From positions 1 through 64,000 of the forward strand of contig JAKPDO010000003.1 of the NCBI GenBank assembly GCA_029552545.1: a stretch of 64,000 nt of DNA, in the 5' to 3' direction. A program made the translations under genes and the position numbers. The notes under the pieces were generated by a model. That model did not search any database. It saw only the letters and a program-made list of their open reading frames with translations, and had not been told where the DNA came from. Shown here one piece after another: positions 54,267 through 57,032 of this stretch. Origin of the DNA: Planctomycetota bacterium. GTDB lineage: Bacteria; Planctomycetota; Phycisphaerae; Sedimentisphaerales; Anaerohalosphaeraceae. Positions within the stretch are counted from its first letter, which is position 1, and each line of letters begins with the position of its first letter.

Positions 54267-55658
54267 ATGGCACAAGGCGAAAAAAGCTGGGAAAAGCGGC
54301 TGGCGGGCGGACCGGATGAACTGGCTGTGGATTTTGTTGAGTCGCTGTCGTTTGACAGGCGGTTGTATAAGCACGATATCGCCGGTTCAATTGCACATGC
54401 CGAAATGCTGGCCGCGCGGGGTCTGATAACCCGGGCCGAGCTGGCGGACATCAAAAAGGGGCTTCTGGAGATTGCCGAGGAGATTGCTTCCGGCCGGTTT
54501 GTGTTTGACAAGCGGCAGGAGGATATCCATATGGCGGTGGAGGCGGCGCTGATTGCCAAAATCGGCGATGCGGGCAAGAAGCTGCACACCGGACGGAGCC
54601 GCAATGACCAGGTGGCAACAGACCTGCGGCTGTGGATGCGGGATGAGATTGAGATTCTGCAGGCGTACCTGACGGACCTGCAGCGGGCGCTGGTCAAGCA
54701 GGCCGAGCAGTATGCGGAGGAAATTATGCCCGCCTATACGCACCTGCAGCGGGCTCAGCCGGTGACGATTGGGGCCTATCTGCTCAGTTTTGTGGAGATG
54801 CTGGCCAGAGACTGGAGCCGTCTGAAAGACTGTCGTACACGTCTGAATGTCTGTCCGCTGGGCAGCGGGGCCGTGGCGGGCTCTACTCTGCCGCTGGACC
54901 GGGAAATGACTGCCAAGTCGCTCGGTTTTGCCGACATTACTTATAACAGCATCGATTCCGTTTCCGACCGGGATTTTTGTGCGGAGTTTATCTTCTGCTG
55001 CTCCCTGATTGCCGCCCACCTGTCTCGACTGGCGGAGGACTGGATTCTGTTTGCGACAACCGAGTTCGGCTTTATTCGAATCGCGGATGCCTATTGCACC
55101 TCGTCGAGTATGATGCCGCAAAAACGCAATCCGGATATGCTGGAGCTGATTCGGGGCAAGACCGGTTCAGTCTATGGGGCCCTTGTGGGGATGCTGACGA
55201 TTCTGAAGGCCCAGCCGTCCGCCTACAATCGGGACCTGCAGGAGGACAAGCTGCATGTATTTCGGGCGGCCGATGTAACAGAGGCCTGTGTGCAGATGGC
55301 GCGGGCGATTGTTGAGCATACGGTTTTTCAGACAAAACAGATTGCCGATGGATTGGACCATGGGTTTCTGGATGCAACGGCGATGGCCGAGTATCTGGTC
55401 GGCAAAGGGGTGCCGTTCCGTGAAGCGCACGGAATTGTCGGGACCCTCGTGGCCCAGTGCGAAAAAGAGGGCAAGGTTAAACTGTCGCAGCTGGCTTTAG
55501 AGCAGATGCAGGCCGTCTGCCGGGTAATTGACAGGGATGTATATGATGTTTTGGACCCCGCCGGCGTGTGCAGAAACTACAAGACGCTTGGTGCCGGCGG
55601 TCCGGACAATATCCGGGCACAGGTGAAGTATTGGAAGGAGAAATTGAAAGAACAATAA
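54267..55658 (+). CDS. argH: argininosuccinate lyase
   Basis: A 463-residue enzyme that splits argininosuccinate into arginine and fumarate in the last step of arginine synthesis. The superfamily signature TSSSMMPQKRNPD is intact near residue 283. Also seen are KRQEDIHMAVEAALIAKIGDAGKKLHTGRSRNDQVATDLRLWMRD, YTHLQRAQPVTIGAYLLSFVEMLARD and SGAVAGSTLPLDRE. TGGAGG lies 8 nt before the ATG. It is the only arginine gene in the window. The four-helix-bundle insertion follows 12 bp after its stop. Confidence 0.97.
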   Translation: MAQGEKSWEKRLAGGPDELAVDFVESLSFDRRLYKHDIAGSIAHAEMLAARGLITRAELADIKKGLLEIAEEIASGRFVFDKRQEDIHMAVEAALIAKIGDAGKKLHTGRSRNDQVATDLRLWMRDEIEILQAYLTDLQRALVKQAEQYAEEIMPAYTHLQRAQPVTIGAYLLSFVEMLARDWSRLKDCRTRLNVCPLGSGAVAGSTLPLDREMTAKSLGFADITYNSIDSVSDRDFCAEFIFCCSLIAAHLSRLAEDWILFATTEFGFIRIADAYCTSSSMMPQKRNPDMLELIRGKTGSVYGALVGMLTILKAQPSAYNRDLQEDKLHVFRAADVTEACVQMARAIVEHTVFQTKQIADGLDHGFLDATAMAEYLVGKGVPFREAHGIVGTLVAQCEKEGKVKLSQLALEQMQAVCRVIDRDVYDVLDPAGVCRNYKTLGAGGPDNIRAQVKYWKEKLKEQ

Positions 55659-55670
55659 AAGACAGGAATG

Positions 55671-56109
55671 CAAGAATACAGGAATACCGGTTATCAGGAA
55701 GAAAAGGAGCGTATTTTTATGGGGATTCCAACAAAAACTTTTGAGGAATTACTGGTTTGGCAAAAAGCCCATAAACTTGTTCTGTCTATTTATAGCAGTA
55801 CAATGAGGTTTCCAAAAGAGGAATTGTATGGTCTTGTTTCCCAAATCAGACGTTCCTCCATTTCTGTGGCGGCCAATATTGCAGAAGGATATAGAAAACG
55901 AACTCGAGTGGATAAACAGCGTTTTCTCACAATAGCACATGGTTCTTTGGAGGAAACAAGATATTATTTAATCTTGTCAAGAGATCTTGGCTATTGTGAT
56001 ATATCAAAGATGATGAGTCTCTTGGAAGAGATCAGCAAACTGCTTACCTTATATTACAGGAAAATAGCGACTGTATGATTACATGATTCCTTGTATTCCT
56101 GTATTCTTG
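55671..56109. mobile_element. candidate mobile unit: four-helix-bundle gene between 17-bp inverted repeats
   Basis: CAAGAATACAGGAATAC at 55671-55687 returns as its exact reverse complement at 56093-56109. Both repeats belong to short arrays of GAATAC-type units. Between them lies only the S23-type four-helix-bundle gene. The unit fits exactly between argH and the start of thiL, leaving both intact. No transposase is present. Confidence 0.5.
55719..56078 (+). CDS. four-helix-bundle protein (23S rRNA intervening-sequence / S23 type)
   Basis: A 119-residue all-helical protein. FEELLVWQKAHKLVLSIY, FPKEELYGLVSQIRRSSISVAANIAEGYRKRT, LTIAHGSLEETRYYLILSRDLGY and LLEEISKLLTLYYRKI match the four-helix-bundle family first known from intervening sequences of 23S rRNA genes. 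Relatives include the accessory protein of diversity-generating retroelements. The function is not known. Here it sits outside an rRNA gene, between exact inverted repeats. AAGGAG before 55719 supports this start. Its base composition is visibly richer in A+T than argH and thiL, a sign of separate origin. Confidence 0.93.
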   Translation: MGIPTKTFEELLVWQKAHKLVLSIYSSTMRFPKEELYGLVSQIRRSSISVAANIAEGYRKRTRVDKQRFLTIAHGSLEETRYYLILSRDLGYCDISKMMSLLEEISKLLTLYYRKIATV

Positions 56110-56117
56110 TACTCGCT

Positions 56118-57032
56118 GTGTCTAAAGAAGACGAAATTACATCCTGGTTTGCCCGACAGTCTCGGCTGGACCCGAAGCGGTTTCCGATAGGGATTGGGGA
56201 TGATATGGCCGAAATTCAGCTGGCCGAAGGAGTGTCGGTTCTGATTACCACCGATACGCTGATGGACGGGGTGCATTTTGACCTGTCCTCCTGCACACTC
56301 GAGCAGGCGGGCTATAAGGCGATGGCGGCCTCACTGAGCGATTGTGCGGCGATGGCGACGGTGCCCCTGTGTGCCGTGGCGGCGGTGTCGCTGCCGACGG
56401 ATTTCGGCATCGAACATCTCAAGCAGCTGCATGCCGGACGCGTGCGGGCGGGGGAGCCCTTTGACTGCGAAGTGGTAGGAGGGGATATTACGAAATGGCG
56501 GCATCCGGAGGGCAAGCTCGTTCTTTGTTATACGATGCTCAGCCGGCCCAGCGGGCATCATCCGCCGGTGCGGCGAAGCGGAGCCCAGGTCGGAGACCTG
56601 ATTTGCGTAACCGGCACGCTGGGCGGGTCTATTCTGGGCAAGCATCTGGAGTTTGTCCCGCGGGTGCGGGAGGCGCTGGAGATGACGCGGCTGGCCCGGA
56701 TTCATTCGATGATGGATATTACGGACGGCCTGAGTACGGACCTGAACCGAATCTGTACGCAAAGCGGCGTCGGGGCCCTGCTGGAGGCAGAGGCCGTTCC
56801 CATTTCGGAGGCGGCCAGACGAATGCCCGACCCGCTTGAGGCGGCGCTGAATGACGGCGAGGATTTTGAGCTGCTCTTTACGCTGCGGGAGGACCAGTGG
56901 GAAAAATTGAAGGGCTTTTCAATGGTTCCGCTGACCGTCATCGGGCGGATTACAGACAGCCGCCGGATGCAGATTCGGATGCCGGACGGGCGGGTGGAGC
57001 CACTGGTGCCGCGGGGGTATGACCATTTATGA
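56118..57032 (+). CDS. thiL: thiamine-monophosphate kinase
   Basis: A 304-residue AIR-synthase-fold enzyme that phosphorylates thiamine phosphate to thiamine diphosphate. Typical features are the N-terminal SKEDEITSWFARQS, GIGDDMAEIQLAEGVSVLITTDTLMDGVHFD, YKAMAASLSDCAAMATVP, CEVVGGDITKW, VTGTLGGSILGKHL, MMDITDGLSTDLNRICTQS and ALNDGEDFELLFTL. The GTG at 56118 gives a normal N-terminus; it begins right after the right inverted repeat of the insertion. tsaE overlaps its stop as ATGA. Confidence 0.95.
   Translation: MSKEDEITSWFARQSRLDPKRFPIGIGDDMAEIQLAEGVSVLITTDTLMDGVHFDLSSCTLEQAGYKAMAASLSDCAAMATVPLCAVAAVSLPTDFGIEHLKQLHAGRVRAGEPFDCEVVGGDITKWRHPEGKLVLCYTMLSRPSGHHPPVRRSGAQVGDLICVTGTLGGSILGKHLEFVPRVREALEMTRLARIHSMMDITDGLSTDLNRICTQSGVGALLEAEAVPISEAARRMPDPLEAALNDGEDFELLFTLREDQWEKLKGFSMVPLTVIGRITDSRRMQIRMPDGRVEPLVPRGYDHL

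Follow-up and report, generated by a model that had tools for sequence, protein, structure and literature searches.

An S23 gene enclosed by inverted arrays of short repeat units between argH and thiL of a Planctomycetota bacterium

Fragmented 23S rRNA brought genes of the S23 type to notice decades ago, and we know of no function that has been assigned to them since. Heptameric repeats have long been known from cyanobacteria and Xanthomonas, and to our knowledge their origin has remained unexplained. The S23-bearing intervening sequences (IVSs) of rRNA genes in Coxiella, Leptospira and other bacteria are units of ~430-450 bp with an S23 ORF lying within terminal inverted repeats; in the Coxiella IVS, a terminal stem of 28 bp is reported, as are heptamers (GACAGAT) ahead of the S23 ORF (PMC4990558). 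Heptameric repeats have been described with the units GGGAATC in Xanthomonas and GGGGA(C/T)T in Nostoc (PMC4692102), and TAACTGA in Beggiatoaceae (PMC4679880), and these two papers make no mention of S23 or of the IVS.

The copy considered here shares with the rRNA IVSs the S23 ORF, the terminal inverted repeats and the overall length, but differs from them in lying between the protein genes argH and thiL and not inside an rRNA gene, in having an intact ORF that belongs to a family under purifying selection, and in having 8-bp units. By the window we mean the whole stretch of DNA analysed, namely 64,000 nucleotides from the genome of a Planctomycetota bacterium (G000).

The element at the argH-thiL junction

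The features of the junction are:

54267..55658, + strand: argH, the upstream host gene, intact (ORF; orthologous and adjoining thiL in relatives)
55663..55696, + strand: left arm, a degenerate 8-bp array CAGGAATG CAAGAATA CAGGAATA CCGG... (sequence, inverted repeat, period-8 class)
55671..55687, + strand: exact 17-bp core of the left arm (sequence)
55704..55709, + strand: putative AGGAG-type ribosome-binding site of the S23 gene (read from the sequence)
55719..56078, + strand: S23 gene with an ATG start, 119 aa, four-helix bundle (Pfam/NCBIfam, PDB 2GSC by sequence, AlphaFold2)
56084..56114, - strand: right arm, the inverted copy of the 8-bp array (inverted repeat)
56093..56109, - strand: exact 17-bp core of the right arm (sequence)
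56118..57032, + strand: thiL, the downstream host gene, with a GTG start directly after the right arm (start aligned with congeners)

The original prediction of exact 17-bp inverted repeats enclosing a single gene holds to the nucleotide: CAAGAATACAGGAATAC (55671-55687) recurs as its reverse complement at 56093-56109, and the enclosed ORF is recovered as S23 by both the Pfam model 23S_rRNA_IVP (PF05635; E=7.9e-36, 122.9 bits against a cut-off of 33.8) and TIGR02436 (E=4e-34). The two arms are the only exact copies of the 17-mer in the window, where up to 3 mismatches yield 3 matches against 0.06 expected, and shuffles of the region gave a longest exact inverted repeat of 8.7 on average and 12 at most, against the 17 observed. 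This observation was right but understated, in that the 17-bp repeats are the core of two inverted 8-bp arrays: the left arm consists of the tandem units CAGGAATG CAAGAATA CAGGAATA C (55663-55687), starting 4 nt after the argH stop, and at 81% identity each arm can be followed over 31 nt (55666-55696 and 56084-56114). As had also been claimed, the unit is AT-richer than its neighbours (GC 0.376 against 0.570 in argH and 0.611 in thiL; GC3 0.33 against 0.68 and 0.71) and sits between two housekeeping genes without damaging them, argH ending before the left arm and thiL beginning after the right one, both intact. The ORF listing places S23 as the sole gene between the arms, with no transposase of its own; a HUH (Y1) transposase is likewise absent from the element, whose sole model matches are S23 and a weak one to bAvd.

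The AlphaFold2 model of the S23 protein (pLDDT 91) finds its nearest folds in 2GSC (XCC0516) and 2RLD and, more weakly, in Avd. The gene is under strong constraint, with dN/dS values of 0.02-0.10 in the pairs with unsaturated dS; the closest pair shows a dN of 0.013 and a dS of 0.131. Each of the four S23 genes of the 3.09-Mb genome lies between inverted arrays of short tandem repeats, and no two share a unit: GGAATACA (8 bp), and the 7-bp units AGTTTTG/AGTTATA, AATGAAG/AATGGAG, and GATTTCC/AATTTTC. The 17-mer was sought near these other four-helix-bundle genes; with up to 2 mismatches it occurs at a handful of further places in the genome, none near an S23 gene, and three of them (C23, C55, and C56) are intergenic repeat arrays lacking an inverted partner. 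We have discarded the notion of the 17-mer as a dedicated terminal repeat: its other genomic copies are mostly parts of 8-bp arrays, and, because the unit differs from element to element and also forms solo arrays, the 17-mer is just the local version of a variable tandem unit.

Array flanks and their link to the S23 lineage

A survey of 59 relatives recovered 0-13 S23 copies per genome, with 0-5 within the genus. The flanks of the 85 unique S23 loci from these relatives are 7-bp periodic in 61 cases, 8-bp periodic in 20, ambiguous in 2, and without periodicity in 2; thus, 81/85 display 7- or 8-bp periodic flanks, against 4/85 gene bodies and 4% of shuffled flanks at the same threshold, and few loci show any other lag in the range 5-12. 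Comparable flanks accompany 75 of 81 S23 genes in other phyla, drawn from eighty loci of the GTDB species collection that include Acidobacteriota, Bacteroidota, Cyanobacteria, Chloroflexota, Pseudomonadota, Nitrospirota, and CPR; this sample was obtained with a narrower S23 alignment, the S23 subgroups sharing too few conserved stretches, and is therefore biased toward relatives of the present S23. Altogether, flanks with a 7- or 8-bp period accompany ~90% of the 227 S23 genes sampled across many phyla. The same pattern is seen at 13 S23 genes on viral contigs, and in a sample from the class of Thiobacillus, where S23 is found in 46/229 genomes, arrays occur at 26/28 loci. Three loci of gut Bacteroidales (L216, L217, L219) have the S23 gene flanked by inverted arrays with 9-10-bp units, rather than 7-8-bp ones. 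The inverted-array signature could serve as a simple annotation aid for the thousands of genes currently labelled 'four helix bundle protein'.

The type of the repeat unit follows the protein. The 7/8 label requires 8 changes on the S23 tree against 18.1 when shuffled (0/500 shuffles as low), and 18 against 31.9 (minimum 28) with 203 genes of many phyla. Up to 50% protein identity, the 4-mer similarity of the arrays stays at 0.15; it then reaches 0.35 at 60-70% and 0.56 at 70-90% (Mantel 0/2000), a rise that is repeated when other phyla are added. Since both unit type and array similarity follow the S23 lineage, the arms travel with the gene. At the same time, when upstream arms were compared with reverse-complemented downstream arms, partners from one element matched far better (mean 21) than pairs from different elements (mean 11), and with the arrays only, the match is 15.6 within an element against 6.3 between clade-mates. 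As read from these sequence comparisons, the arms drift faster than the protein, with both arms of one element staying alike. The upstream arm also has a strand asymmetry, G outnumbering C in 119 elements and C outnumbering G in 24.

Of the explanations that compete with an S23-driven one, an insert acting at the RNA level fares best, though we regard it as unlikely. Under it, the transcript stem would be cut by RNase III to release the S23 segment, the S23 protein would bind RNA, and base-pairing would select for arm likeness; the release would allow the element to be tolerated in operons. The predicted RNA fold of the element, which is far better than those of shuffles (z -4.6), the occurrence of the same arms in an rRNA IVS (see below), and the closeness of the fold to Avd, a part of an RNA-dependent retroelement complex, all speak for it. 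So does orientation, with S23 pointing the same way as both neighbours in 49 cases and the opposite way in 4 among the relatives (p 7e-11), and in 45 and 6, respectively, in other phyla, as judged from the longest flank ORF, which is an imperfect proxy; but this bias could also arise if S23 lacks a promoter of its own. The arms themselves are harder to reconcile with this alternative, as their mismatches show no preference for G-U compatibility (148 elements; 191 mismatches G-U-compatible and 216 of A-C type; p=0.23). Accordingly, we rejected RNA pairing as the means by which arm identity is kept, and the symmetry of the arms points to maintenance at the DNA level.

Junction history, movement, and solo arrays

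Comparison of the argH-thiL junction in related genomes gave a divided answer. It is empty in four congeners (G002, G003, G004, G005), and in a fifth (G001) as far as the contig reaches, in keeping with a mobile unit; however, an S23 gene of the same lineage occupies it in seven genomes outside the genus (G016, G017, G027, G032, G033, G034, and the Sedimentisphaerales locus L188), due to which a recent insertion at this site is unsupported. A fresh insertion was thus weakened as a candidate by these syntenic copies in other genera, and import into G000 by homologous recombination was set aside after no clear donor tract emerged from sliding identity over the two host genes. The unit in this group varies by genus (GGAATACA, GAACACAA, GGTATATA, AGGAATRT or AAGTATAC), and the arms match in nearly every copy, with G033 having no clear right arm. 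In G027 (L074:616-2930), two S23 genes of one lineage, each with 8-bp arms, lie between argH and thiL and downstream of thiL, respectively, a possible local duplication.

The element at this junction is, therefore, either old and repeatedly lost or has returned to the same place, and the pattern fits an old insertion with losses as well as it fits movement. A purely vertical history, with an old insertion lost in the congeners and the arrays arising by slippage in AT-rich spacers, agrees with the shared lineage at a shared junction and with the spacing of the host genes, which overlap or almost touch in nearly all sampled outgroups but are separated by 8-89-nt spacers at the empty sites within the S23-bearing clade. 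We nevertheless consider it improbable: as the ThiL tree places G000 as the sister of G003 with G004 next, several separate losses within one genus would be needed, and slippage explains neither the inverted matching arms nor their link to the protein lineage.

That arms and gene constitute a mobile unit, as had been suggested, is borne out by other loci. Two loci from different genomes (L157 and L154) have 440 bp in common, bounded by the arrays, with unrelated outer flanks, and the range of S23 counts per genome and the empty sites in congeners point the same way. At a thiolase site, G000 and G003 carry different S23 elements, and G004, G001, and G005 none; a further element next to lemA is common to G000 and G003 only. 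Such inverted termini, sites with unrelated flanks, and patchy distribution would also befit a passive MITE-like passenger, with an unrelated transposase or recombinase recognising the arms in trans and S23 as mere cargo. This is a rather remote alternative, for one transposase acting in trans would be expected to give all copies ends of its own type, whereas nearly every element has a different arm sequence, one that tracks the S23 lineage across many phyla. No target-site duplication was recognisable at the empty sites of several loci, for which the available relatives are diverged, and this may count against the passive passenger as well as against an S23-driven explanation.

The proposed connection to rRNA intervening sequences is upheld by a gammaproteobacterial locus from the Thiobacillus-class sample (L416, genome G094), where an S23 gene with two stops lies inside a 23S rRNA gene (Rfam LSU, 277-2799) and is bounded by inverted heptads (CATCAGAAGACAGAA..., lag-7 identity 0.90). 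Given these arms and the heptamers of the Coxiella IVS, we regard the rRNA IVSs and the intergenic S23 elements as one kind, with the classic rRNA IVS an apparent instance of it.

Arrays are also found on their own. A survey of stretches away from S23 genes in 15 genomes recovered 0.5-13.6 solo 7/8-bp arrays per 100 kb in the S23-bearing genomes and 1 in ~700 kb over seven S23-free ones. Their density follows the number of S23 genes per Mb (Spearman rho 0.88, p 1.4e-5; partial on GC 0.90), with the p-value being optimistic as the 15 genomes are related; the link is correlational. Solo arrays are closer to S23 arms from their own genome than to arms from other genomes (Fisher 4e-6), with 9/42 individually below 0.05 and 33/42 having no significant match to S23 arms, for which the arms of some of the S23 genes were sampled. 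The number of units in an orthologous solo array varies from species to species. One such array, of CAGTTATCA units, has ~4 units in one and ~11 in the other of G000 (C23; L104:1227-1261) and G003 (L137), and an S23 element that G003 has and G000 lacks matches its unit. Inverted array pairs without S23, with 33-42-nt loops, occur at L296:9022-9133 and L302:10798-10905 in S23-rich genomes, and are possible non-autonomous hairpin derivatives. In Pedobacter, one genome has an S23 element (L224) at a junction where another has an S23-less inverted heptad pair with a short loop (L235, 1377-1465). The proposal that arrays came first, as ordinary dispersed heptamers whose inverted copies served as landing sites between which S23 genes settled, draws on the orthologous S23-free arrays with changing copy number and on this Pedobacter pair, but is the least probable of all, as the S23-free genomes are almost free of arrays and the unit type follows the S23 lineage.

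These comparisons establish the architecture and its generality, the link of unit to protein lineage, the DNA-level match of the arms, purifying selection on the gene, and the association of S23 with solo arrays. With a probability of about one half, we propose that the argH-thiL locus is an S23 element of ~450 bp, comprised of an S23 gene and two inverted arrays of 7-/8-bp units, co-directional between operon genes, and that such elements are compact and of low mobility, with S23 recognising and maintaining its repeat arms by a RAYT/REP-like logic that uses an unrelated protein. An S23 oligomer would recognise the repeat unit at the DNA level, where it may be presented in a cruciform or single-stranded form; arm-to-arm copying, promoted or licensed by S23, would keep the arms alike; and the same activity might occasionally copy the whole element, or an array alone, to new intergenic places, with strand cutting supplied by host or other enzymes. 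The history of the elements would be mostly one of vertical persistence and frequent loss, with movement being rare. Counting against an S23-driven explanation are that no catalytic activity of S23 is visible or known and that, according to the literature on Coxiella, S23p is probably not expressed. More tentatively, S23 might be the driver of a bacteria-wide repeat system, in which a lineage-specific 7-8-bp unit is built and copied into inverted arrays and scattered as solo arrays. If so, the heptamer repeats known for so long would have an explanation, and the rRNA IVS would be one of the insertion niches of a class of genetic elements that lack a transposase.

Comparison with known systems

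We found no paper linking S23 to heptamer arrays in the open-access full text, and on that footing the link is likely but not proven to be new. The data tie S23 to heptamer repeats, in that genomes with abundant S23 have abundant 7-8-bp arrays whose unit belongs to the protein lineage, and both the function of S23 and the origin of the heptamers can be tested with one protein and one short oligonucleotide. The bacterial heptamer repeats (cyanobacterial STRR and those of Xanthomonas, Nostoc, and Beggiatoaceae) are, like the S23 arrays, degenerate 7-bp tandem arrays of mostly intergenic location, and those of Xanthomonas also form inverted pairs; most S23 elements have 7-bp units, with the argH-thiL copy having 8-bp ones.

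The Avd protein of diversity-generating retroelements shares the four-helix bundle fold (4DWL, 8UB7; TM 0.76-0.78), but the present S23 has argH and thiL as neighbours and not a reverse transcriptase, and scores far below the cut-offs of the Avd models (bAvd, 22.7 bits against 40; DivGenRetAVD, 28.2 against 80), which places it outside that family. From MITEs and insertion sequences, it is set apart by the absence of a transposase of its own. The RAYT/REP-REPIN systems (PMC3116915) offer a parallel in organization, with one gene flanked by an inverted repeat, a repeat type that follows the protein lineage, and dispersed solo copies; the solo arrays of S23 were likewise found to be dispersed and linked to the gene. 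However, S23 is a four-helix bundle without the HUH transposase domain, and the element is therefore not a RAYT/REP member; its repeats are degenerate 7-8-bp tandem arrays instead of single palindromes, and the arm sequence varies within one genome. The recurrence of this layout at almost every S23 gene examined, over many phyla and also within rRNA, suggests a widespread small genetic element in which protein and repeats belong together.
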